Below, one piece after another: positions 14,421 through 29,809 of a DNA stretch of 29,809 nt (position 1 is its first letter; every line of letters begins with the position of its first letter). The stretch is from a virus: IMG/VR virus record IMGVR_UViG_3300050821_005779, positions 1 to 29,809 of that record; one strand, written 5' to 3'. Both the position numbers and the translations under genes were made by a program. The notes under the pieces were generated by a model that was given only the letters and a program-made list of their open reading frames with translations, had not been told where the DNA came from and searched no databases.

Positions 14421-15407
14421 TTACTTGGAGGCCCGCCCGGTCAGGTTGGACCGGAAGCCCTCCAGCGCGGCCGGGTCCACGGCCGGGGCGGCCGGGCTGG
14501 CCTCGGACGAGCTGTTGCTCGCAGCCCCCTCACCCTCGGCAGTGTCGTCGCTCTTACCACGGCCATACCCGCCTTCGGGCTCAGCACCCGGGACGAACCA
14601 CGTGTTGTAGTGATCCTGGGTGGCGTGCGCCAGGATGTACTCCTGCAGGCCCTTGGCGGCGTCGCCGTCACCGAAGCCGACCAGCTTGAGCGCGTTGGTG
14701 TAGACGTCCCAGGTGGGGGCGCCCGGCCGGTGCACGGGGTCGATCTGGACCAGGGCGACGCTGTAGTCCTTGCCCTTGCGGGTGAGCCGGAAGTCGCGCT
14801 CCTCCGCAGTGGCACCTTCCAGGGCGAGGGTCGAGCTGACACCGGCCCAGAAGTTCCCCCATCGCTGCGCGATCATCACAAACTCGGGGATCTGGTGGGT
14901 GGTGCCCGAGGCGTCCTTGTACTCGACCATCTTGTCCACCAGGCCGGTCGCGCCGCCGGAGGCGTTCCGGTGGGTGTCCCGGGTCACCGCCACACCGTAG
15001 GTCAGGTTGGACGGGCGGCCCTTGTCGATGCTCGGGAACTTCTCGTCCTTGACCCCCGTGTAGGTGTCACACAGGTAGCAGTCCCCGTAGCCCTCCTCGA
15101 AGGCGTCGGTGAGGTTGCCATGCTCGTCCCGCAGGCGGAAGATCCGGGACTTGCGGCAGACCGCCCACATCATCCGCGGCCAGTTGTCGCCCGACCACTC
15201 GTCGGGCTTGTCCTTGGTGGGCATGAACTGGTGGGTCTCCACCGTCTGCCAGGCGGTGCGGCCGGTGATCGGCCGGAGCAGACCATCGAAGCCGTCCTTG
15301 ATGGCCAGCTGGTTCATCCGGTACTGGCGGCCGGCCCGGGAGGCGCGCGCCTCCTCGTCCAGCTTCTCGGCAGCGGTCGCTCCGGCGGACGAACTGAAAT
15401 CAGGCAT
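14421..15407 (-). CDS. Putative single-stranded DNA-binding protein (gp32-like arrangement)
   Basis: Predicted 328 aa with SD AGGGAAAAC. It has a basic N-terminal part (RAGRQYRMNQLAIKD), a possible metal site made of H59, C84 and C110-x2-C113 (GDCYLCDTY), a beta-rich centre (DYSVALVQIDP) and a Ser/Ala/acidic flexible tail (residues about 280-315). This order recalls T4 gp32: basic N-terminus, OB-core zinc site of His and three Cys, acidic tail. The gene sits directly upstream of the polymerase. No direct sequence identity to SSB is claimed; a DNA replication accessory is the alternative. Confidence 0.5.
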   Translation of the reverse strand: MPDFSSSAGATAAEKLDEEARASRAGRQYRMNQLAIKDGFDGLLRPITGRTAWQTVETHQFMPTKDKPDEWSGDNWPRMMWAVCRKSRIFRLRDEHGNLTDAFEEGYGDCYLCDTYTGVKDEKFPSIDKGRPSNLTYGVAVTRDTHRNASGGATGLVDKMVEYKDASGTTHQIPEFVMIAQRWGNFWAGVSSTLALEGATAEERDFRLTRKGKDYSVALVQIDPVHRPGAPTWDVYTNALKLVGFGDGDAAKGLQEYILAHATQDHYNTWFVPGAEPEGGYGRGKSDDTAEGEGAASNSSSEASPAAPAVDPAALEGFRSNLTGRASK

Positions 15408-15422: not shown

Positions 15423-16421
15423 TCACTGTTTCCACTGAGCCACAACCCGTCTCACGGCCTCAATTGCCAACTCATGGGTCTGATGCTCGTTTCCGATAAA
15501 GAAGATACAGCATTTATTGCTATCGCGCCAACTCCGTGGCGCGTGTCCCGGCCAGATACCGACCGCGAACGTCATCCGGACCCCCAGCTCGGTGCAGGCC
15601 GTGGCGATCATCGCCTGCCACTCCTGCAGCACCAGCGGGGAAGGCAGGTCCATGGTCCCGCCGAGGTCTGACATCCGGAACCAGCTCCAGTGCCGGTCCC
15701 ACTGGGACAGGGTCGAGCCGAGCGTGCCGGCCTCGCTGCCCAGCGGGGCTGCCTCCCCGGCGTTGCCGCGCAGCCGCTCCCGGGCCTCCTCCGGGGTCAG
15801 GCCGTCCTGCAGTCCCCACTCTTTGAGGACTTCGCCCTGGCTGGTCTCGGGCTCCCAGCCGTCGTTCTCGGCGTTGCGCCGGGACGCCTCCATGGACGCC
15901 TGGCGGCGCAGCACCTCCTGGACGTCACGGTCACCCATGAACAGCCCGCCCAGCGGCATCCGGTCATAGGCGCGCCGGATGATGGGGTTGAGCAGCTGCA
16001 TCAGGGCGTAGTGCAGCCGCTCGTCGGTCTGCTGCGGATCCAGAGTGAGGTAAGTCTCCCTGAGCTGCCTGTTTGTCGCTGCCCAGGGCACGCCCAGGCG
16101 CCGGTAGTAGCCGCATACGTCCCAGATGTAGGTGGGCGTGGGCTCCATCTCCTGGCAGCTCGACGCCACTTCGGGCCCGTCGCCTTCCATGGTCATCCGC
16201 CAGCCCGGGGGCGCCTCCCGCTCCCGTGCGTCCCAGGCGCGCCAGGACGGCGGCTCGTCCTCCTCCGGCGGCGGCAGGGCGGCATAGCCGAGCTGCATGG
16301 CCCGGAACTCCTCCGAGCTGGAATTGAGGATCCCGGTGTAGTGCCGGACGTAGCGCTCGCCCAGGGCCTCGTCCAGCCGGAGGTCGCCGTTTTCGTCCCG
16401 GAACGCGAACGGCTCAGTCAT
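15423..16421 (-). CDS. Protein with degenerate DnaJ-like domain
   Basis: Predicted 332 aa; the ATG at 16421 overlaps the previous stop by 8 nt. Residues about 102-155 follow the J-domain layout: CGYYRRLGVPWAATNRQLRE, then YLTLDPQQTD where HPD should be, then LLNPIIRRAYDRMPLGG matching the NEAY..L..P..R..YDR end. Lacking HPD, it should not stimulate a DnaK ATPase. J-like folds without HPD occur in phage replication proteins and adaptors. The C-terminal region (about 260-332) is compact, Trp-rich, with CCIFFIGNE. Next to the SSB-like and polymerase genes, a helicase-loading or scaffold role is conceivable (inference). Confidence 0.65.
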   Translation of the reverse strand: MTEPFAFRDENGDLRLDEALGERYVRHYTGILNSSSEEFRAMQLGYAALPPPEEDEPPSWRAWDAREREAPPGWRMTMEGDGPEVASSCQEMEPTPTYIWDVCGYYRRLGVPWAATNRQLRETYLTLDPQQTDERLHYALMQLLNPIIRRAYDRMPLGGLFMGDRDVQEVLRRQASMEASRRNAENDGWEPETSQGEVLKEWGLQDGLTPEEARERLRGNAGEAAPLGSEAGTLGSTLSQWDRHWSWFRMSDLGGTMDLPSPLVLQEWQAMIATACTELGVRMTFAVGIWPGHAPRSWRDSNKCCIFFIGNEHQTHELAIEAVRRVVAQWKQ

Positions 16422-16848
16422 CACCGGCCGCGGAGTCGGCCTGCTCGTTCTCCTGCTCCAGGGCCTGCTCCAGGCTCGCGTCGTCGGCCGCGGCCTCGCG
16501 GCTGATGGCGGCATGCTCGACGCCGGTCACGCCCTGGACGTCGGAGGTGCCGTGCTTGCGGATAGCCATTTGATCCCTTTCTTCTGAACGAGTTTCCTTG
16601 CTAATTGTACGATCCAGTGACGATTCTGCCGGCAATGATTCAATCCAGGCGAAACCGCACATTTCACATTTACTGCAGAAATGCCCGGCCATTCCGGATC
16701 GGGGCAGCACCCGCAGGCACGCCCACTGAGGGGCCCCGCCGAACACGACCAGCAGGGGCTCGGCGTGGAAGACGACGGCGGCGCCCTCGGTGCCGCAGAC
16801 CGGGCACGGGTGCGCCGGGTCGTAGGGCCGGACGGCAGGCTCGTTCAC
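16414..16848 (-). CDS. Zinc-ribbon protein with in-frame C-terminal segment (possible nested gene 16414-16569)
   Basis: A GTG at 16848 overlaps the preceding stop (GTGA) and gives 144 aa. CPVCG (about 13-17) and CSKCEMCGFAW (about 52-62) form a zinc ribbon. After it, codons for about 30 residues (16570-16660) are AT-rich and unlike their neighbours. Then comes MAIRKHGTSDV with its own AAAGGGA ribosome site 5 nt before ATG 16569, encoding a 51-aa acidic peptide in the same frame. Either one protein is made, or an upstream ribbon gene has an internal start yielding a separate 51-aa product. The low-GC junction looks like former intergenic DNA. Confidence 0.6.
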   Translation of the reverse strand: MNEPAVRPYDPAHPCPVCGTEGAAVVFHAEPLLVVFGGAPQWACLRVLPRSGMAGHFCSKCEMCGFAWIESLPAESSLDRTISKETRSEERDQMAIRKHGTSDVQGVTGVEHAAISREAAADDASLEQALEQENEQADSAAGDD

Positions 16849-21632: not shown

Positions 21633-22409
21633 TTACTTCGAGCTGGCCGCGCGGGCCGGCTTCTTGGGCGGGTAGAGCGACGCCGACGGCGCGCCCTTCT
21701 TGGTGATGCTGGCCAGGATCTGCAGGAACCGGCCAGGGTTCTTGCGGATGGCCACGGCCATCTTGTCCTTGTCCAGGACCCGGGTGGTCCGGGTCATGGC
21801 GTTGAACTCGGCCTGGGTGATGGCGCCGGACAGGACCAGCTTGGCCAGAATCTTGGCGTCCACCGTGGACGAGCCCTTGACGTACCGCTGCTGCCAGGCG
21901 TCCTCGTAGCCGGGGACCGTGACGTTGTGCGGGTCCCCAGGACCAGCCAGCAGCCAGTGGCCAGCCGCCTTGCCCTCGGCGATCCGGGTCTTGCCCTCGG
22001 TCTTGCCCAGGCGCTCGGCCTCGACATCCATGTGGACCCGGGCGTACTCGGCGATCTGCTCGCGCCGCTTGCTCAGCAGATCGGTCAGCGCGTCGATCAC
22101 GTTGATCTCGTCCGACAGGCCGGTCAGCTCACTGGGCTCCAGCTCGCGCCGGGTCTCCGGGCTGACCTTGGCGAACACCGACGGCAGCTGGCGCATCCGC
22201 GCCTTCACCGCGTCGGTGATGCTGAGCTTGGCCGGGACGTCCGGGAACCTGGCGTCCCGGTCCATCGCGCGGTCCGGCTCGACCAGGAGGTCAAGCAGCT
22301 TGTCCACGGTGAAATCGCCGTTGCCGGCGATCTCCGCGATCAGGCCCGGGGCTACCTGCACCAGCTCGTCGGCGGTTGCAGTGCCCGAGGTCTCGGTCGT
22401 GGCGGTCAT
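21633..22409 (-). CDS. Hypothetical phage protein, 258 aa
   Basis: Preceded by AAGGAGA at 7 nt. Helical, charged protein with an N-terminal Thr-rich tail, a DLLSKRREQIAEYARVHMDVEAERLGK helix region (residues about 112-138), a HWLLAGPGDPHNVTVPGYE segment and a Lys-rich C-terminus (PPKKPARAASSK). No cysteines and no catalytic motif. It is the first gene behind element copy 3 and begins the run leading to the replication genes; it may be an abundant DNA-associated protein (inference). Family not recognised. Confidence 0.75.
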   Translation of the reverse strand: MTATTETSGTATADELVQVAPGLIAEIAGNGDFTVDKLLDLLVEPDRAMDRDARFPDVPAKLSITDAVKARMRQLPSVFAKVSPETRRELEPSELTGLSDEINVIDALTDLLSKRREQIAEYARVHMDVEAERLGKTEGKTRIAEGKAAGHWLLAGPGDPHNVTVPGYEDAWQQRYVKGSSTVDAKILAKLVLSGAITQAEFNAMTRTTRVLDKDKMAVAIRKNPGRFLQILASITKKGAPSASLYPPKKPARAASSK

Positions 22410-22448: not shown

Positions 22449-22477
22449 AGATTAGCAAGAAAAGCTGTAGACCGCAA
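22449..22477 (-). promoter_or_regulatory. Promoter with 18-bp element, copy 3
   Basis: On the minus strand: -35 TTGCGG (22477-22472), 17-bp spacer, -10 TAATCT (22454-22449). The spacer and -10 contain the exact 18-bp core TACAGCTTTTCTTGCTAA (22469-22452). Drives the gene starting at 22409, with a roughly 30-nt leader. Confidence 0.7.
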
Positions 22478-22497
22478 CCCCGCCCGGAACCGGCGCG

Positions 22498-22953
22498 TCA
22501 GCTGGCGGCGGCGACCGCGGCCAGCCAGAGCATGGCGAGGTGGAACGCCTGGTCCATCGAGTGGGCCCCGGTGCCCAGCACCTGGTTGTCGTCCTTGCCC
22601 GGCCGCGGGGATCCCAGCTCCCAGAATCCGCGGTGGCCGGTGGCGACGGCCAGGCGGGCCAGTCCGCGCGGCGGGTCGAGCTGGCGCCGGTCGGCCCAGT
22701 AGTGGCTGGCGGCGTCCAGGGCGAGGGCCACCCCGGCGCGCCGCCAGGCCAGGCGCCGACCGGACACGGCCAGGAGGCTCAGGGAGACCGCCTTGGCGGC
22801 CGTGAGGCTGGCGACGTGGGCGGCGCAGGCCCGGCGGCCCTGGGCGCCTTCCAGGCCCTTCTCGCGGGCCTGCTGGTCGGTCTGCAGCCAGTAGTCGCCC
22901 ACCTGGTGGCCGGCGAACAGGGCGGTGAAGATCTCGGCGCTGGTGGCGTACAT
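22498..22953 (-). CDS. DUF3307-like integral membrane protein
   Basis: Predicted 151 aa with ATG 22953. The pattern fits DUF3307: FTALFAGHQVGDYWLQTD at the start (the H..GD..LQTD signature), a middle LALDAASHYWADRR, and a final HSMDQAFHLAMLWLA with DQ..H. Several hydrophobic segments make it a membrane protein; the family's biochemical role is unknown. Its Shine-Dalgarno AGGGAG, 5 nt before the ATG, lies inside a 17-bp hairpin stem (see 22958-23005). An in-frame upstream ATG inside that hairpin could add 13 residues. Confidence 0.72.
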   Translation of the reverse strand: MYATSAEIFTALFAGHQVGDYWLQTDQQAREKGLEGAQGRRACAAHVASLTAAKAVSLSLLAVSGRRLAWRRAGVALALDAASHYWADRRQLDPPRGLARLAVATGHRGFWELGSPRPGKDDNQVLGTGAHSMDQAFHLAMLWLAAVAAAS

Positions 22954-22957
22954 GGGT

Positions 22958-23005
22958 GCTCCCTGGTGCGATGGGGCTTTCTTGCCATCCATCGCACCAG
23001 GGAGC
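22958..23005 (-). promoter_or_regulatory. Perfect 17-bp hairpin masking the ribosome site of the DUF3307-like gene
   Basis: Arms 22958-22974 and 22989-23005 are exact reverse complements (17 bp) with a 14-nt loop that itself can pair GGC/GCC. In the minus-strand mRNA the second arm contains AGGGAG, the only ribosome site for the ATG at 22953. No U-run follows, so it is not a standard terminator. It fits a translation switch. Confidence 0.7.
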
Positions 23006-23057
23006 AGCTGATATGAATCCGTCAAATGACGGGTTCTGGGTGTCTCATCTGAGACGG

Positions 23058-23363
23058 TCAGGAACGCAGGTCCCCGCTACCGATCAGGGTGGCCGCCTGG
23101 ATCAGCCGGGCCGCGCCGTGGGCCCTGATCGAGCCGGCCACGTCGCCAGCGGCGTACCGGCTGGCGCTGATGTCGGCCCACAGGCCCACGATGTCCTCGC
23201 GCTGGTCGGTGACCCCGGCCTCCTCGGCCGCCAGCCCCTCGGCCTGCTCGGCCTTCTCGCGCAGCTCGGCCACGTAGTCCCGGACCCACTTCGGCTGCCT
23301 GGCCAGGTCGTAGTCCTTGTCGCCGACCCGCACGACGTCGGGCTCGGGCTTGTCCTTGGCCAT
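23058..23363 (-). CDS. Hypothetical protein, 101 aa
   Basis: Acidic and mainly helical (VAELREKAEQAEGLAAEEAGV), with a small N-terminal beta part (VVRVGDKDYDLA). No domain recognised. Start overlaps the previous stop (TAATG). Last gene of the small operon 24427-23058, before the hairpin-controlled gene. Confidence 0.7.
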   Translation of the reverse strand: MAKDKPEPDVVRVGDKDYDLARQPKWVRDYVAELREKAEQAEGLAAEEAGVTDQREDIVGLWADISASRYAAGDVAGSIRAHGAARLIQAATLIGSGDLRS

Positions 23364-23578
23364 TACCGCACCACCTTCCAGTGGGACTCGAACACGAACC
23401 GGTTGACGGACAGGGGGAGGACGGCCAGCTGGGTTACGCCGTTGAACTCGACCAGGAGCTGGCCGTCCTTGAGGGTGACGTCGAACGAGCCGTCCACCTG
23501 GGGCCCGTTGAACCGGATGGTCTGGCCGTCGGGGATGGCCAGTGTGCCGTCTTCCTGGGTGCCGTAGCCGTCATCCAT
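23363..23578 (-). CDS. Hypothetical beta-rich small protein
   Basis: Predicted 71 aa, ATG 23578 after AGGAGG at 5 nt and overlapping the preceding stop (TGATG). The sequence alternates as in a small beta sandwich (GQTIRFNG, GSFDVTLKDGQLLVEFNG, NRFVFESHWKVV). Function not recognised. Confidence 0.68.
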   Translation of the reverse strand: MDDGYGTQEDGTLAIPDGQTIRFNGPQVDGSFDVTLKDGQLLVEFNGVTQLAVLPLSVNRFVFESHWKVVR

Positions 23579-24027
23579 CAGGCCCTCCTGGTCAGATCTT
23601 CGATACGGGCATCCACACGGTCCCGGAGGACGCGGAGGTCGGCCAGCCGCCACTCGGAGCTGGTGGTGCCGTGGCCGTTGCTGGTCACCAGGGCGGTGTC
23701 GCCCGGGGTCCAGTCGCTCTCGGTGAACCGGATGTCGGTGTACCGCGGCTGCTCCTGGGCGTGCCGCCAGAGGATGGCCGCGATGGCGGTCTCGTAGGTC
23801 ACGTCACCGGTCAGCTGCTCGTCCGACGGGGTGTAGGTGGCCGGGTGCTTGGCGTCCCAGGCGAAGTACCGCTCGGGGTCCTTGGAGACCTGGAACGCCC
23901 GGCCGATCACGGTGCCCTCGGGCGTGCGGACGTTGGTGTATCCGTTGGAGTAGGTCAGGGTGGCCACGATCTCGCCGTCCCGGCGGACGGTGTGGCCCCG
24001 GATGTCGAGGACGGACTCGGTGGTCAT
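23578..24027 (-). CDS. Hypothetical protein, 149 aa
   Basis: ATG 24027 overlaps the previous stop (ATGA) and has GGAG 7 nt upstream. N-terminal beta segments (VLDIRGHTVRRDGEIVATLTY) are followed by a helix-rich region. No motif recognised. Part of the tightly coupled five-gene unit starting at 24427. Confidence 0.7.
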   Translation of the reverse strand: MTTESVLDIRGHTVRRDGEIVATLTYSNGYTNVRTPEGTVIGRAFQVSKDPERYFAWDAKHPATYTPSDEQLTGDVTYETAIAAILWRHAQEQPRYTDIRFTESDWTPGDTALVTSNGHGTTSSEWRLADLRVLRDRVDARIEDLTRRA

Positions 24028-24230
24028 GAGGATGCTCCGATCAGCTGGGCGGTCTTGGGGACAAAACGGCCGTCCGGGGTCCGGAACGGCAGTTCGGCAG
24101 GGATGACCCCGCAGCTCGGGCACAGGCGGGTCTTGCCGCCGCGGTTCTTGATCCGGCGCTCCTCGTAGCGGTCGCCGGGCCAGGTGCGGGCCAGGTGCCA
24201 GCCGATGTTCTGCTCGGCCAGCACGGCCAT
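24024..24230 (-). CDS. Small putative zinc-binding protein
   Basis: Predicted 68 aa from ATG 24230 (TGATG overlap with the gene before). It has an Arg-rich patch (RYEERRIKNRGGKTR) and one CPSCG motif; H15 could be a third ligand. May bind nucleic acid; too short to assign. Confidence 0.6.
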   Translation of the reverse strand: MAVLAEQNIGWHLARTWPGDRYEERRIKNRGGKTRLCPSCGVIPAELPFRTPDGRFVPKTAQLIGASS

Positions 24231-24427
24231 CAGGCGGGCCCCGTTGCCGGGCAGTCCTCGTCGTAGTGACGGTCCTTGGGGTCGTGCGACTCGCGGCAAG
24301 GCGCAGCCGGGCAGGCCGGCTGCAGCGGGATCCGGACGATCACGAACAGCTGCGGGGCGGGCGCGTCGCGGTCGTCGATAACCTCCTGCAGGCCCTCGCG
24401 TGCGATGTCCTGGTCGTTCTCGTACAT
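24230..24427 (-). CDS. Small hypothetical protein with Cys/His tail
   Basis: Predicted 65 aa with AGGAGGA 6 nt before ATG 24427. N-terminal acidic helix (MYENDQDIAREGLQEVIDD), a beta strand (LFVIVRIP) and a C-terminal part with three Cys and two His (CPAAPCRESHDPKDRHYDEDC). First gene after element copy 4. Function unknown. Confidence 0.65.
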   Translation of the reverse strand: MYENDQDIAREGLQEVIDDRDAPAPQLFVIVRIPLQPACPAAPCRESHDPKDRHYDEDCPATGPA

Positions 24428-24464
24428 GGCGTCCTCCTCGCTGCGATGATTCCCTGCACCACTG

Positions 24465-24493
24465 ACATTAGCAAGAAAAGCTGTAATGCGCAA
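24465..24493 (-). promoter_or_regulatory. Promoter with 18-bp element, copy 4
   Basis: Minus strand: -35 TTGCGC (24493-24488), 17-bp spacer, -10 TAATGT (24470-24465), with the exact core at 24485-24468. It begins 6 bp after the terminator hairpin of the gene upstream and drives the unit starting at 24427. Confidence 0.75.
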
Positions 24494-24499
24494 CAGGAA

Positions 24500-24527
24500 A
24501 CCCCGGGCCCGCTGAGAGGCCCGGGGT
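24500..24527 (-). terminator. Intrinsic terminator of the 25657-24540 unit
   Basis: Ten-bp GC stem (24500-24509 with 24518-24527), 8-nt loop, followed in the minus-strand transcript by UUUCCU. Sits 12 nt after the stop codon at 24540. Confidence 0.72.
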
Positions 24528-24539
24528 CCTAGGGACTGG

Positions 24540-25103
24540 TCAGTGGCGGCGGCGGGCGGACCGGTAGAGGCTGACCTGGGCCGCCAGCTCCCGGCGGTCG
24601 GCGGAGTCGGCCTCGGCCCGGGGCATCCAGTGCTCCCCGAAGCCTTCGGGGTCCCAGCCTTCAACGCCCGCCCGGTGCGGGCAGTCTTCCGGCGTGAACA
24701 GCACGACCCAGTAGCCGGCCGGGATCGAGTACGAGCCGCGGCGCCCGCCGAAGTTCAGCCGCCCCGGGTCGGCGGACCAGCTGGCGCTCTCGGCGTGATC
24801 CTGCAGCCAGCCGACGATGACCTGGTGGTTGTTCTCGGTGACCTGGACGGCCCACGCCAGCTGGCGCGTGCCGTTGACGTAGGGCACCCGGGAGGCGAAC
24901 CGGGCGGCCGGGCCCGGGTCGGCCTCTGCGGGCCGGTCAGCTTCCGGCAGCGGGGCGATAGTGGCGATCCGCACGCCGTCCAGGGTCAGGTAGGCGGTCT
25001 GGCCGGCGTCCCGGGCCTGCTCGGCCGCGGTCAGGATGGCGTCGGTCTCGTCGTGGTCGAACCGGCCGCCCATGGCCATGTCGATAGCGATCTCGGTGCT
25101 CAT
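24540..25103 (-). CDS. Hypothetical protein, 187 aa
   Basis: ATG 25103 with GAGGAGA 7 nt upstream, overlapping the previous stop (ATGA). Two parts: a small N-terminal region with a helix and strand pair (DAILTAAEQARDAG, TAYLTLDGVRIATI), then a mixed C-terminal region ending in a basic helix (YRSARRRH). SYSIPAGYWVVLFTPEDCPHRAG is a hydrophobic core segment. No family recognised. Confidence 0.7.
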   Translation of the reverse strand: MSTEIAIDMAMGGRFDHDETDAILTAAEQARDAGQTAYLTLDGVRIATIAPLPEADRPAEADPGPAARFASRVPYVNGTRQLAWAVQVTENNHQVIVGWLQDHAESASWSADPGRLNFGGRRGSYSIPAGYWVVLFTPEDCPHRAGVEGWDPEGFGEHWMPRAEADSADRRELAAQVSLYRSARRRH

Positions 25104-25657
25104 CGGGCGATCTCCTCGGGCTCGGCGGTCACGGTCAGTCCGTAGGCGCTGATCTCGCTGGCCGCGATGTCATCCAGGAACGGGGTCAGGCCGGAGTACT
25201 GATCGGCCTGGCCGGTGCCATCTTCGGTGAAGTAACCGCCGATGGCGTACAGGATCTGAGCACGCTTGCCGCGGTCGTCAGCGTCGGCAGCACGGGCCAG
25301 GTCGCCAAATTCGCCGGCCAGGTTGCTGATGATTCCCAGGTGACCGCTCGGGTCCAGCAGAACCAGGCCGTGCTCGGTGGCCGCGATGGCCAGGCAAAGC
25401 CAGCGGACCTGGTGCCATTTGGTGACGGCTTCCCTGCGCACGCAGCTGTCCGGGTTCAGGGACTCGACGTAGATCAGGGTGGCCAGCCGGTCGGCTGCTG
25501 CCGCCATCTCGGTCAGGGCCTCGTAGCGCTCGGACGGGAACGTGGCTTCGCCCAGTTCGCGCAGGGCCTCGTTGTACCTCTCCTCGTAGGTGGGCGACTC
25601 GATCAGGGTGCGGCTGCGGAACAGTCCGGTGATCTCGGTGATGGACGGGAGACGCAT
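25100..25657 (-). CDS. Hypothetical helical protein, 185 aa
   Basis: ATG 25657 with GGAAGG upstream. Helix-rich, with regular charged heptads (EERYNEALRELGEA, ALTEMAAAADRLATLIYVE). No catalytic motif; WHQVRWLCLAIAATEHGLVLL is a hydrophobic core rather than a membrane span. First gene behind element copy 5 and coupled to the 187-aa gene. Confidence 0.7.
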   Translation of the reverse strand: MRLPSITEITGLFRSRTLIESPTYEERYNEALRELGEATFPSERYEALTEMAAAADRLATLIYVESLNPDSCVRREAVTKWHQVRWLCLAIAATEHGLVLLDPSGHLGIISNLAGEFGDLARAADADDRGKRAQILYAIGGYFTEDGTGQADQYSGLTPFLDDIAASEISAYGLTVTAEPEEIAR

Positions 25658-25694
25658 GGCGGCGGGCCTTCCTGGTCGGGAGTACGTAGGATCA

Positions 25695-25722
25695 ACATTA
25701 GCAAGAAAAGCTGTATTGTCAA
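25695..25722 (-). promoter_or_regulatory. Strong promoter with 18-bp element, copy 5
   Basis: Minus strand: consensus -35 TTGACA (25722-25717), 16-bp spacer, -10 TAATGT (25700-25695), exact core at 25715-25698. The -35 overlaps the end of the preceding terminator palindrome. Confidence 0.82.
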
Positions 25723-25752
25723 CAGCCCCGGACTGCAGTCCGGGGCTGTTGA
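25719..25752. terminator. Perfect 34-nt palindrome, terminator of the 68-aa gene
   Basis: An uninterrupted palindrome centred on CTGCAG, 17 bp per arm, with GC-rich middle. It begins 8 nt after the stop at 25760. In RNA it forms a long hairpin; its left edge contains the -35 of the next promoter. Confidence 0.7.
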
Positions 25753-25759
25753 TAGGTCA

Positions 25760-25966
25760 TCATTCAGCTGGGTTACGGATCTCGAACCGAGCGTTCGCCG
25801 AGAACACGCGCTCCTGGCCGTCTGCCCGGGTGATAGCCACGCGCCCGTGCAACCGCGGGATCGCCTGCGTAACGGTCTGGTAGTCCAGCCAGTACTCGTA
25901 CGGTGCGTACTTGCGAATGACGTCCCCGACCTTGATCTTGCTGGCGGTTTTGGTGTTGCGTTCCAC
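25760..25966 (-). CDS. Small hypothetical protein, 68 aa
   Basis: GTG start at 25966 with AAGGAGC 5 nt upstream. A basic N-terminus (MERNTKTASKIKVGDVIRKY) leads into beta-type segments (RVAITRADGQERVFSANARFEI), like a small SH3/OB-type barrel. A single-gene unit with its own promoter (copy 6) and terminator. Possibly nucleic-acid binding; unassigned. Confidence 0.68.
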   Translation of the reverse strand: MERNTKTASKIKVGDVIRKYAPYEYWLDYQTVTQAIPRLHGRVAITRADGQERVFSANARFEIRNPAE

Positions 25967-25996
25967 GGTCGCTCCTTAGTACGTTGACTAACTTCA

Positions 25997-26024
25997 ACAT
26001 TAGCAAGAAAAGCTGTATTGTCAA
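25997..26024 (-). promoter_or_regulatory. Strong promoter with 18-bp element, copy 6
   Basis: Minus strand: TTGACA (26024-26019), 16-bp spacer, TAATGT (26002-25997), core at 26017-26000. Identical across all 28 positions to copy 5, while the DNA on both sides differs. Confidence 0.82.
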
Positions 26025-26036
26025 CAGACCGGGAAA

Positions 26037-26063
26037 AGCCCCGGCCCACTGGGGACCGGGGCT
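26037..26063 (-). terminator. Intrinsic terminator of the 29077-26074 unit
   Basis: AGCCCCGG (26037-26044) pairs with CCGGGGCT (26056-26063); the minus-strand transcript continues with UUUUCCC. Located 10 nt after the stop at 26074. Confidence 0.75.
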
Positions 26064-26073
26064 CCTCCTGCGG

Positions 26074-27933
26074 TCAGCCGTTGGGGTTGTTGGACACGTC
26101 CCACGCCTGCTCGTTGGTGCGGGGCTCCCGCTGGCGGGCCAGGTCGTGCTCGTGCGCGGCCTCGTAGATGCCGATGCCCTCCCTGGAGTGCTCGGCCATC
26201 TGGTGCAGCTGGGTCAGCAGCGACTCGTAGTGGTCGGCCACGGCCGGCTCCAGCGGGTACTCCTCGCGGAGCCGGGTGATCATGGCCTGCAGCGCGTTGC
26301 CCTGCTCGGTGAAGAACTCCGGCAGGTCGTTGAGCCAGTCGCCGACCGGCGCCATGTGCTCGGGGTCGTAGCTGCCGATGGCCTCCTGGACCGCTTCGGT
26401 GGCCTGGGCGATGGGGCTATGCATGGTGCTGGTACCTCCAGGGTGATAGGCGGGCCCGCGACCGGCTGGCGGCGGGTCCTGGGTCTGGCTGTGCGGTGCC
26501 GGGTCCGGCATCCGCGGGCCGGTGGTGTTCTGGCCGGTGCCGGCCGGGGTGCCGCCGCCCAGGGGCTGGGTGGGCTGGCGGACGTAGTAGCGGAACGGTG
26601 CCCGCTGCTGCTTGCGCCGCCACGGCCGCCAGGACTTCGCGCGGGACCAGGCCCGGCGGTGCCAGCGCGGCCGGTTCAGGGTGACCTTCGGCGCCGCGTG
26701 CGAGGCCGGGGTCGTCCTGGACCAGGGAGCCCAGCGGCGGTAGGTGGAGCGGGCCCGGCGGTAACGGGCCCCGGCCGCCCGGATCCACCGGTGGTTCTGC
26801 TTGCCGGTCGCCCGGGGGGTCCCGGGCTGAGCCTTGTGCCCCCGGGGTGGCGGGGCGTGCCGGGCCCTGGCCGCCTTCCGGGCCGCGGATTTGGCCTTGC
26901 CCTTCCGCCACGCCCAGCCGCCTGCAGCGGCGGCCCCGGCCAGCGGCAGGCCGAGCGTCCACCAGGCCGCCTTGCCCGCCCTCGACTTGGGCGACCACCG
27001 CTTCTTCGGGGTGCCCTTGGTGCCGGGCTTGCCGGTGGTGCCCGGACGGCTCCCGGTGCCGCTACCCTTGCCGCCGCTCGCGCCGCCAGGACGGCGGCCC
27101 CGGAACGGGATGAAGCGACGGCCTGGCCGGCGCCCGGCGTTGGCGTTGCCGCGCCGGCCCGTGCCGCCCTTGCCGGAACCGGCGGACTTGCGCCCGCCCG
27201 GCCCGGTGGTACGGGCGTTGCGCTTGCCGCCCAGGGGGTGGCGCAGCGAACGGGACCCGCGGCCCCTGGCCGTGCCGATCCCCTTACGCCGGCCCGTGCC
27301 GGGACCGGTGCCCTTGGCGCCGCCCTTACGGCCCAGGATGCCCCGGCGCGTGCCACCGGCCTTCGGGCCGCCTGTGCCACCCGTGCCGGTCTTGGACCGG
27401 CGCGCCAGGCCCTTACGTGCTGACGCGCCACCTTTCGCGCCACCGCGGCGCGCCAGGAACGAGCCAGCGCGCGTGCCACCGGCACGCCCGGCACGGCCGC
27501 CGGAAGCCATCGAGCCTTTGCGCCGCGTGCCAGACAGGCCCTTGCCTCCCGCCCCGGCACGGCCGCCACCGCGCCGGGACGAAAGGAGCCCTTTGCCGGG
27601 CATGCCCCGGCGCGCTCCGGCACCGGACGGCCCGAGCCGGCGCGTGCGCGTGGTCCGGGTCCGGCGTGTCCTGACCCGCTTGCCGGTCGAGCCGAAGTGC
27701 TTGCGCAGCCTCGGCAGGTACCGCAGCAGGAGAAACAGCAGGAACAGCGCGACCGCGGCGATCAGCACGACCACCAGGGCGCCGCCGCCCAGCTTATGGG
27801 CCAGCAGGGCGCCGCCGACGACCAGGAGCGCGAGCACCATGCCCACGCGCCTGAGCGTCGAGCCGCCGCTGCGGCCCTCCGGGGCACCCTCCGGAGACGA
27901 GGTGGTCTCCGGAGGGGCCTTGGTGTCAGCCAC
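26074..27933 (-). CDS. Membrane protein with long basic Gly/Arg/Lys-rich body (possible nested gene 26074-26424)
   Basis: Predicted 619 aa from a GTG at 27933, overlapping the DUF2637 gene by 8 nt. Two adjacent transmembrane helices (about residues 31-48 and 52-70) are followed by about 390 residues of low-complexity Arg/Lys/Gly/Thr sequence, with a hydrophobic AWWTLGLPLAGAAAAGGW near 320-340. A Trp/Arg-rich part and a Pro/Gly linker come next, then a helical acidic C-terminal domain. That domain begins at MHSPIAQ, ATG 26424, with GGAGGT 9 nt upstream, so it may also be made separately (116 aa). The basic body could bind DNA or RNA at the membrane. With the SpdB-like neighbour, a role in DNA transfer or spread is plausible, not proven. 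Confidence 0.75.
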   Translation of the reverse strand: MADTKAPPETTSSPEGAPEGRSGGSTLRRVGMVLALLVVGGALLAHKLGGGALVVVLIAAVALFLLFLLLRYLPRLRKHFGSTGKRVRTRRTRTTRTRRLGPSGAGARRGMPGKGLLSSRRGGGRAGAGGKGLSGTRRKGSMASGGRAGRAGGTRAGSFLARRGGAKGGASARKGLARRSKTGTGGTGGPKAGGTRRGILGRKGGAKGTGPGTGRRKGIGTARGRGSRSLRHPLGGKRNARTTGPGGRKSAGSGKGGTGRRGNANAGRRPGRRFIPFRGRRPGGASGGKGSGTGSRPGTTGKPGTKGTPKKRWSPKSRAGKAAWWTLGLPLAGAAAAGGWAWRKGKAKSAARKAARARHAPPPRGHKAQPGTPRATGKQNHRWIRAAGARYRRARSTYRRWAPWSRTTPASHAAPKVTLNRPRWHRRAWSRAKSWRPWRRKQQRAPFRYYVRQPTQPLGGGTPAGTGQNTTGPRMPDPAPHSQTQDPPPAGRGPAYHPGGTSTMHSPIAQATEAVQEAIGSYDPEHMAPVGDWLNDLPEFFTEQGNALQAMITRLREEYPLEPAVADHYESLLTQLHQMAEHSREGIGIYEAAHEHDLARQREPRTNEQAWDVSNNPNG

Positions 27934-29077
27934 TCATTTCACCTCCACCTGGCAGCGTCGAGGCCGGGCGTGCGATGAGCTGCGCCTGGTCCGGGCGGGG
28001 CTGCCGGGGCTGGGCCGGGAGCTGGGGTGCCCCGGCCGGGTCTGTGTCCTGGGCGGGGATGCCCAGCGATTCGAGGTCCAGGCGGGCCTGGTCGGTGATC
28101 CGCTCGTCATAGAGGTTCTTGGCCAGGCGCCGTTGGTCGGACTCGCTGTCCAGCTCGCGGGCAATGGCGCGCTTAGTGGGCAGCTCGTTGATCGGGAAGC
28201 CAGCCAGCCATTTCCTCACCTCGTCAATGCGCTCCTGCGGGGGGCGCTTGGAATTGCCGGCCGAAAAGGACGCCGCCGCGGAAAGATGCGCCTCCGAGGT
28301 CGGGCCCGGGGCGGGAGCCGCTGGCACGGCCGGCTCTGGCACGCCTGGCACGGGCTGCGCCGGCACAGGTGCCACTGGCACGGCCTCGATCGCTGGCACG
28401 TCCGGCTGCGCCACCGCTGGCACGGGCTCGGGGACTGGCACGGCCTGCGGCGCGCCAGGGAGCGTACCGCGCGCCGGCCCGGCTGGCACGAGGGTGCCCC
28501 AGCCGCGGTCCTCGAACGCGCCGATGGCGCGCTGCGGGTCGGTCTCGCCGACCCAGGTGGCGCGGAACATGACCTTGGCGGACCGGTACATGTGCCAGAG
28601 CCAGCGGGTCGCGCCGAGCCGGACCGCGTGCTCCTCGACCAGGCCGCGCTCCATCAGCTTGTCCCGGGAGGCCCGGCGGGTGTGGATACCCCACAGCCAG
28701 GGGGACAGCGCCGACATCAGGCCCAGCCCAACGGCCAGGGCGTTGGGGTGCCAGTCACGGGCGTAGTGGGAGTAGTTCATGGCGCCGATGACCAGGGCGA
28801 ACAGGTACGCGGCCAGCTTGAGCCGGGACGCGGAGTCGTTGGCCAGCTGCGCCAGGTGCGCGTGCCAGGCCAGGTAGACGGCGACCGACTCGACGGCGAC
28901 CGAGAACAGGACCTGACCTGGGATGATCCATGGCACGTGCTGGAGCGTCCAGGCGAACTGCCCGATGAACGCGGTGCTGTTGACCAGCACGATTGGCACG
29001 GCCGCGGCGGTGGTCTTGGCGATGGCACGGGTAACCGGAGCGTTGTACCAGTGCGACGTGGCGGCGTCGTCGGACAT
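27926..29077 (-). CDS. DUF2637 / SpdB-like membrane protein
   Basis: Predicted 383 aa, SD AAGGAGGAG. The N-terminal 150 residues hold about four hydrophobic segments in the DUF2637 pattern: NSTAFIGQFAWTLQ, GQVLFSVAVESVAVYLAWHAH, YLFALVIGAMNYSHY, and LSPWLWGIHTRRASRDKL. DUF2637 occurs in Streptomyces plasmid spread (SpdB-type) proteins and related elements. A Pro/Val/Ala repeat linker (about 205-250) leads to a C-terminal region with PPQERIDEVRKWLAG and LPTKRAIARELDSESDQRRLAKNL, a helix-turn-helix-like DNA-binding segment. This layout joins membrane and DNA binding. It is first in the operon behind element copy 7. Confidence 0.78.
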   Translation of the reverse strand: MSDDAATSHWYNAPVTRAIAKTTAAAVPIVLVNSTAFIGQFAWTLQHVPWIIPGQVLFSVAVESVAVYLAWHAHLAQLANDSASRLKLAAYLFALVIGAMNYSHYARDWHPNALAVGLGLMSALSPWLWGIHTRRASRDKLMERGLVEEHAVRLGATRWLWHMYRSAKVMFRATWVGETDPQRAIGAFEDRGWGTLVPAGPARGTLPGAPQAVPVPEPVPAVAQPDVPAIEAVPVAPVPAQPVPGVPEPAVPAAPAPGPTSEAHLSAAASFSAGNSKRPPQERIDEVRKWLAGFPINELPTKRAIARELDSESDQRRLAKNLYDERITDQARLDLESLGIPAQDTDPAGAPQLPAQPRQPRPDQAQLIARPASTLPGGGEMSG

Positions 29078-29113
29078 CTGTCTCCTCCTTGCGTCTGCTG
29101 GGGTAATGGCTCT

Positions 29114-29142
29114 ACATTATCAAGAAAGCCTATATTCGTCCA
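29114..29142 (-). promoter_or_regulatory. Promoter of the DUF2637 operon with diverged element, copy 7
   Basis: Minus strand: TGGACG (29142-29137), 17-bp spacer, TAATGT (29119-29114). The core at 29134-29117 matches the 18-bp consensus at 14 positions, keeping TTTCTTG and TAA. Confidence 0.6.
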
Positions 29143-29224
29143 CCGTGACTGGCGGTTACAGATTCGGCGCGAAGCCATTTCCGGCCGCCCTGGAGGTGCA
29201 AGATCACAGTCACAAGCAATTGAC

Positions 29225-29240
29225 CTGCGCAAATGCGCAG
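29225..29240. repeat. Palindrome CTGCGC-AAAT-GCGCAG
   Basis: A perfect 6+4+6 inverted repeat in the divergent region, far from both promoters; a regulator site or small structured element. Confidence 0.45.
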
Positions 29241-29269
29241 ATGTGATCGGGGTCCTTGTGAGCAACGAA

Positions 29270-29287
29270 TAGATAGGTTTCTATCTA
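29270..29287. repeat. Inverted repeat AGATAG-GTTT-CTATCT
   Basis: A 7-bp stem (TAGATAG with CTATCTA) and 4-nt loop; AT-rich, unlike the surrounding DNA. Could be an operator or a helically unstable site. Confidence 0.45.
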
Positions 29288-29293
29288 ACAGAG

Positions 29294-29340
29294 GGTCACA
29301 GATCACGCCTCTCGGTCACACCGAAACCGGGCAGATCACA
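29294..29340. repeat. Three direct TCACA repeats at exact 20-bp spacing
   Basis: GGTCACA at 29294 and 29314 and GATCACA at 29334 are phased by 20 bp, about two helical turns. Further related heptamers are GATCACA at 29202, AGTCACA at 29208 and inverted TGTGATC at 29242. Phasing suggests cooperative binding on one DNA face: iterons or operators. Confidence 0.6.
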
Positions 29341-29362
29341 GCGTCTGGGCCGGCGCTCAGTG

Positions 29363-29388
29363 ACTGTTAGCAACAAAAACAGTAATCT
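29363..29388 (+). promoter_or_regulatory. Plus-strand promoter overlapped by element copy 8
   Basis: A -10 TAATCT (29383-29388) with AGTGAC about 18 bp upstream could start the plus-strand transcript about 40 nt before the GTG at 29433. The copy-8 core (29367-29384, three mismatches) lies between them in the opposite orientation, and ACTGTT/AACAGT (29363-29368 and 29378-29383) makes it an inverted repeat. Confidence 0.5.
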
Positions 29389-29432: not shown

Positions 29433-29809
29433 GTGAGGGACCACAAGGTCACCGCAGAGATCGTCGTTTTCGCGTGCTGCAGCGCGCTGGCGGCTCTGGC
29501 CGTGCTGCCCGGGGCCTGGATTGTCCCGGCCGCCGAGATCGTCCTGGGCCTGGTCACCATGGGCGCGGTGTGGGCGATGACCGGGGCGGCCTTCCTGGCC
29601 CTGTTCTGGGGCACCTTCGGGACCGTCCTGGGCATCTGGACCATCTGGGCGTCCCACCGGCTGTGGCATGTCGTCACGTTTTTCGCCCTGTTCGTCATCA
29701 CCGTGGTGGCGGCCCCGGTCGCCGTGCACGCGGTCCGGAAGGCCACTCCGGTCCCGCTCCCGGAGCCTGAGCCGGCCCGGCAGCAGCTCGACGACGGCCT
29801 GACCCCCGA
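29433..29809 (+). CDS. Multi-span membrane protein, 5' part (runs off the window)
   Basis: The only plus-strand gene. A GTG at 29433 follows a strong AGGAGG (29420-29425), and the frame stays open to the window end (125 codons). Hydrophobic stretches at about residues 9-32, 34-60, 62-73 and 79-97 predict three or four transmembrane helices, with a Pro/Glu-rich cytoplasmic segment starting near 102 (PVPLPEPEPARQQL). Small membrane proteins with such tails occur in actinobacterial plasmids and phages, but no family is recognised. It is divergent from the DUF2637 operon and shares its control region. Confidence 0.72.
   Translation, partial: MRDHKVTAEIVVFACCSALAALAVLPGAWIVPAAEIVLGLVTMGAVWAMTGAAFLALFWGTFGTVLGIWTIWASHRLWHVVTFFALFVITVVAAPVAVHAVRKATPVPLPEPEPARQQLDDGLTP

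Follow-up and report, generated by a model that had tools for sequence, protein, structure and literature searches.

A near-identical asymmetric element of about 18 bp recurs throughout the genomes of a family of large, uncultured soil phages and, judging by its sequence context, is a predicted operator occupying the spacer of sigma-A-type promoters in either orientation. One phage-encoded protein would bind all of these sites. Seated between the −35 and −10 boxes, it would keep the host RNA polymerase off the promoter, and much of the phage gene set (replication, methylase, accessory and some structural genes) would be shut or timed jointly. Exclusion of the polymerase by a phage-encoded regulator on such spacer operators, at ~30 sites per ~165-kb genome, is considered reasonably probable; the simplest guess at its purpose is early-gene shut-off or timing.

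Copies of the element in the window

The window, that is, the whole stretch of DNA analysed, is a 29.8-kb IMG/VR virus record with a GC content of 0.69, whose minus-strand genes include a DnaE-like polymerase, a primase/helicase, an exonuclease and a UvsX-like protein. It contains four exact copies of the element and five graded ones (Table 1), against a chance expectation of 0.00 at up to three mismatches in dinucleotide shuffles of the window. The initial annotation gave correct coordinates and strands for all the copies it listed, be they exact, one-mismatch or diverged, but overlooked the two on the plus strand, one of them weak. It had also placed a gene-start promoter at every minus-strand copy. 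The promoters are indeed there, but two of eight copies are antisense to the gene served, and these two are the key to the nature of the element.

Table 1. Predicted operators and a doubtful further copy in the window, with the promoters and genes at these sites (PWM, position-weight score)
Coordinates	Strand	Feature	Match	Promoter	Gene	Orientation
1331–1348	−	operator	one mismatch	−10 TAAGCT, poor −35	1–1320 (−)	on the gene's strand
15506–15523	+	operator	three mismatches	TTGGCG-18-TATCTT (−), overlapped	14421–15407	antisense to its gene
16587–16604	+	weak degenerate copy, doubtful	PWM 20			
22452–22469	−	operator	exact	TTGCGG-17-TAATCT	21633–22409	
24468–24485	−	operator	exact	TTGCGC-17-TAATGT	24230–24427	
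25698–25715	−	operator	exact	TTGACA-16-TAATGT	25100–25657	
26000–26017	−	operator	exact	TTGACA-16-TAATGT	25760–25966	
29117–29134	−	operator	diverged, reads TATAGGCTTTCTTGATAA	TGGACG-17-TAATGT	27926–29077	
29367–29384	−	diverged operator	three mismatches	GTGACT-17-TAATCT (+), overlapped, facing the gene	29433–29807 (+)	antisense to its gene

Several of these sites recur in related phages. The site at 22452 is found upstream of 7/7 orthologs of its gene and the diverged site at 29117 upstream of 8/8. Antisense sites like that at 15506 precede all seven orthologs of gene 14421–15407, and one like that at 29367 precedes four of the eight orthologs of gene 29433–29807, which is the 5′ part of an FtsK-like gene (its ortholog is FtsK/SpoIIIE-like).

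The FtsK/SpoIIIE-like gene is divergent from gene 27926–29077 (−), which encodes a membrane protein with a weak match to DUF2637 (E = 0.0012, below the cut-off). It is distantly similar to TraB of Streptomyces plasmids (36.9 bits, far below the cut-off) and in record G005 is followed by a DivIVA-like gene. This set (counterpart region in G005, 82850–87012) resembles genes for plasmid transfer in mycelia, here on a large phage, and gives a hint that the host may be mycelial.

Distribution in the phage family

The window is one piece of a genome from a family of ~165-kb actinophages, relatives of the cluster C mycobacteriophages (Ceeclamvirinae). It has 20–24 genes in common with each of four other records (G001, G005, G006 and G007). 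The major capsid and portal proteins of the family, neither of which is encoded in the window, are 59% and 36–38% identical to those of Myrna-type phages. The full genomes span 162–166 kb and match the Ceeclamvirinae-like size of ~150–165 kb; genomes are called near-complete from this length alone, which is like that of Myrna.

The consensus of the element is TACAGSNTTTCTTGMTAW. Across 15 records, it occurs in about 25–35 copies per full genome, nearly all of them intergenic, with zero to two matches in reversed controls. Whole-record searches at up to three mismatches gave 6–24 sites per record and none for the reversed pattern, and eight further records with the element were added. In nine records, position-weight scoring gave 182 sites, 174 of them intergenic, and almost none in the controls, while six unseen records yielded 113 sites (103 intergenic) against 0 in the reversed control. 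Random scatter of the copies within genes, the outcome that the initial annotation had named as speaking against a regulatory site, is not what these scans reveal. Element sites also recur consistently at the genes of two helicases (7/7 and 6/7), of a 1495-aa protein (12/14) and of a C5-methylase-like protein (7/13), and an element promoter serves a widely conserved DUF6011-like protein of 183 aa in 12 of 13 genomes.

In a pattern scan of IMG/VR, the element turned up on contigs rich in GC and up to 165 kb long; scattered low-GC hits were dismissed as chance or coding matches with no relation to it. Related cultured phages gave no match spanning the 18-mer, the first 50 kb of Myrna hold no site (best PWM score 5), and a search for related loci with the window's polymerase as query returned no result. 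Across the genomes of 84,980 species of bacteria and archaea, the exact 18-mer has 10 scattered, unrelated matches with no sign of use, and it was rejected as a host promoter element on that ground. The 166-kb record G011 (L162) encodes a BldC protein and has only four weak sites, two of which read TACAAGGTTCCTTGATAA; its operator specificity has possibly diverged.

Promoter geometry and two orientation classes

The promoters follow the pattern −35 TTGnnn, 17–18 bp, −10 TAnnnT, in part with an additional GCAAGG, and their relation to the element defines two classes. The sense class comprises 58 sites with the gene on the element's strand and its start within 60 nt, as placed by a simple purpose-made gene caller whose single distances may err; the class statistics are independent of single genes. 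Here, the end of the element provides TAwnnT, and a TTG lies 17–18 bp upstream. In the antisense class (34 sites, gene on the opposite strand), TAwnnT is provided by the opposite end of the element, with a TTG 17 bp upstream of it. In both classes TTG peaks at 17–18 bp along the direction of the gene. The −35 box is weak in many sense-class promoters and good in the antisense class. At a few sites the surroundings do not resemble a promoter, and the gene starts are uncertain there.

Core positions 0–17 are about equally conserved in the two classes, whereas conservation of the −35 and −10 letters is confined to the strand that carries the gene served. The last base of the −10 box is T in 95% of sense sites versus 21% of antisense sites (Fisher p = 1e-13), and its antisense counterpart is found in 82% of antisense versus 10% of sense sites (Fisher p = 3e-12). 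A core-only search of held-out genomes gave 97% versus 12% and 75% versus 14%, respectively. In one third to half of the leadered promoters of both classes, GCAAGG begins 7 nt past the −10 box. All 33 TAnnnT-N7-GCAAGG strings in 15 records have an element, which supports antisense-class promoters that face the gene.

In many sense promoters the predicted transcription start coincides with the ATG, and others have leaders of ~30 nt. Gene 1–1320 (−) of the window, with its ATG at 1320, 10 nt past the element, is apparently leaderless. Such mRNAs appear to be common in the family (e.g. at window 1331, G005 80880 and G006 5071). Positions 5–6 of the element are mostly CT in sense-class operators and GG in antisense-class ones, and position 14 is C or A, varying by genome. 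Inverted-repeat structure within the element is weak.

Operators inverted in place

In six ortholog families, the operator has opposite orientations in different phages, at a similar distance to the gene start and with the promoter flanks kept, though some of these families are only 30–40% identical, and in those a re-created site looks the same as an inverted one. For example, a promoter that reads TTGCGCAT-TACAGGGTTTCTTGCTAA-TGTTGGTCTTGCAGGGA in G005 reads TTGTGCA-TTAGCAAGGAACCCTGTA-ATGTAGGTCTTGCAAGGGA in G002. By separating operator from promoter, the flips constitute the strongest single argument for what appears to be a kept protein-binding site. A core kept both ways, boxes that follow the strand of the gene and inversions in place together make the element a predicted protein-binding operator and not a sigma determinant, and the orientation classes and flips rule out a reading as promoter only. 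The proposal of the initial annotation that a DNA-binding protein's site is involved, rather than a promoter alone, is strongly supported.

A BldC homologue as candidate binder

Pfam scans covered most non-structural proteins of G005, and the strongest conserved DNA-binding protein in them is HTH_17/MerR-like. It scores over the cut-off in G001, G002, G005, G007, G008 and G009 and is also present in G010, G012, G013 and G014. The protein belongs to the BldC family (NCBIfam HTH_BldC, 103 bits versus a cut-off of 77), its top PDB match is Streptomyces BldC (6ama, E = 4e-25; 6amk also matches), and its DNA-reading part is almost identical to that of host BldC. The homologue is found in 5/5 near-complete genomes (over the cut-off or by tblastn); neither of two partial sequences, G006 (82 kb) and the window, showed it, and it is absent from the cultured relatives searched, as is the element. 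Other candidates were discarded: a 74-aa MarR-like protein for poor conservation and inconsistent placement, HTH_23 proteins for weak matches that in part overlap BldC-like genes, and the 183-aa DUF6011-like protein for want of a recognisable DNA-binding domain.

In seven records, an element lies at or just past the 3′ end of the BldC gene, and next to it comes a small ORF with the promoter TTGn-17/18-TAnnnT; G005 and G002/G009 carry a further element 140–220 bp upstream of the gene. The BldC-adjacent element is located upstream of the −35 box and outside any spacer, which suits repression less well. A conserved ORF of ~35–45 codons with its own promoter is found between this element and a tRNA-like sequence in G001 (from 87107), G005, G002 and G007.

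BldC molecules line up head to tail on asymmetric 9-bp direct repeats (PMC5859096), and the protein acts both as a repressor and as an activator (PMC5859096, PMC6428758). When set against the 9-bp repeat AATT(N3-4)(C/G), the element reads AATA-CAG-S and then TTTC-TTG-M, 9 bp apart; its best direct self-similarity lag is also 9, a weak signal with negative similarity. Among the loci compared, records with A at position 14 have WAAA[KR]PPR in BldC and those with C have WA[KR][SA]G[KR], a correspondence confounded by ancestry. Taken together, the BldC homologue, a MerR-like winged-helix protein, may be the binder of the element, a tentative assignment. The link is circumstantial because one phage family is involved, and the association could be mere shared ancestry.

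Repression and its alternatives

The −35 boxes are good, particularly in the antisense class, and this argues that the promoters can do without an activator, which agrees with a spacer-bound regulator that excludes the polymerase. Points against such a repressor are that no classical repressor was recognised, that lysogeny genes were not found and that a lytic-looking phage would have to repress so many promoters. A spacer-bound activator that aids the polymerase, either by MerR-like distortion or by MotA-like sigma appropriation, and thereby marks a class of middle-gene promoters, is the less likely arrangement, but it has several points in its favour: the site lies between the boxes, as with MerR; BldC is MerR-like, distorts DNA and is able to activate; many sense-class promoters have a weak −35; and the BldC-adjacent copy upstream of the −35 is in an activator-like location. 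However, an asymmetric site is used equally both ways, in-place inversions included, the 17–18 bp spacers are optimal already, the antisense-class −35 boxes are good, and no MotA/AsiA-like gene came to notice in searches with other targets. Recognition of the 18-mer as an extended −10/−35 by a phage sigma factor or an altered polymerase is highly improbable, even though the 3′ end of sense-class elements forms an extended −10 (TTGmTAwnnT) and the element is always at promoters. A sigma-specific class has its determinant in a single orientation relative to the start site, whereas in antisense-class promoters the core is reversed while ordinary −35 and −10 boxes face the gene. Sigma-70 region 2 was not found in 10 records, four near-complete genomes included, and a phage sigma factor was rejected.

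Lysogeny, which the initial annotation had assumed, finds no counterpart in the gene content: no tyrosine integrase, resolvase, ParA or CI-type (HTH_3) repressor scored over the cut-off. With these and a sigma factor lacking, lysogeny of the L5 style is unsupported, and an immunity system built on sites like the L5 stoperators or the C1 operators of P1 is very improbable. Tens of asymmetric sites per genome are what such systems have (over 20 in L5, 22 in P1, and SPbeta likewise), but no tyrosine or serine integrase accompanies them here, the orientation is free, unlike in L5, and the cultured relatives, cluster C mycobacteriophages, are lytic, which was counted against immunity. Least credible is binding by a host regulator, such as host BldC, through which phage promoters would track the developmental state of the host; the near-identity of the DNA-reading parts and the mycelial host suggested by Tra/DivIVA-like genes fit it, but the exact element is not in use in the bacterial and archaeal genomes searched.

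Implications

Polymerase exclusion by a phage-encoded regulator would make the element part of a genome-wide control system, apparently undescribed, in uncultured soil phages. Evolution has here performed a natural experiment by inverting operators within otherwise unchanged promoters, so that control of polymerase by a spacer-bound protein, and the running of a phage by a captured host developmental regulator, are testable. A fuller scenario, in which a lytic actinophage family took BldC over from its host and turned it into a highly specific master regulator that controls about 30 promoters through orientation-free operators in their spacers, is rather unlikely. In that scenario, infection may be linked to the developmental state of the host, since the two BldC proteins read DNA in the same way. 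The element consensus also flags promoters in contigs without expression data.

Comparison with known systems

T4 middle promoters, which are controlled by MotA, have an extended −10, a weak −35 and a protein-bound box just upstream. The MotA box has a single orientation and takes the place of the −35, whereas the element is freely inverted and the −35 is usually present. Phage P1 persists as a plasmid prophage and has partition genes. Its C1 repressor has 22 dispersed asymmetric 17-bp operators (PMC8546580), a similar arrangement, but the sequence is unrelated and no ParA or integrase was found in the element phages.

The stoperators of L5-type phages likewise repeat a single asymmetric sequence many times over an actinophage genome, both in promoters and between genes (PMC9283540). 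They are 13 bp long, number over 20 per genome and are oriented with transcription, and their reversal abolishes function (PMC9283540). In the L5 system, sites also lie in short gaps between genes that have no promoter, where they block elongation; few element sites lack a promoter-like context, and the gene starts at these are uncertain. The element matches them in having many asymmetric sites, about 30 per full genome, but differs in length (18 bp), in sequence, in its nearly constant location in promoter spacers and in its free orientation, with both classes frequent and six in-place flips. Since reversed L5 sites lose function (PMC9283540), the stoperators with which the initial annotation compared the element do not include it as a member. 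The L5 system also has a repressor with an HTH plus a Stoperator domain, in a temperate phage; no L5-type repressor was recognised in the searches for integrase, resolvase and HTH_3, which gave nothing over the cut-off.

In phage SPbeta, a ~15-bp element (SPBRE), repeated in promoter regions and bound by MrpR, was found in silico decades ahead of its repressor (PMC10516654). SPBRE differs in having about ten sites, a recombinase-fold repressor and a temperate Bacillus phage as its carrier. Streptomyces BldC sites (whiI, smeA) are similar in being asymmetric 9-bp direct repeats, AT-rich and then C/G (PMC5859096), and the DNA-reading residues are shared by phage and Streptomyces BldC; however, the Streptomyces sites are degenerate, not predictable and much looser (PMC6428758), whereas the element is almost invariant over 18 bp. 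Genome-wide asymmetric operators are therefore already known from L5, P1 and SPbeta. What is new is the predicted spacer-filling geometry with free orientation, its occurrence in a lytic-looking phage family and the possible role of BldC as master regulator.
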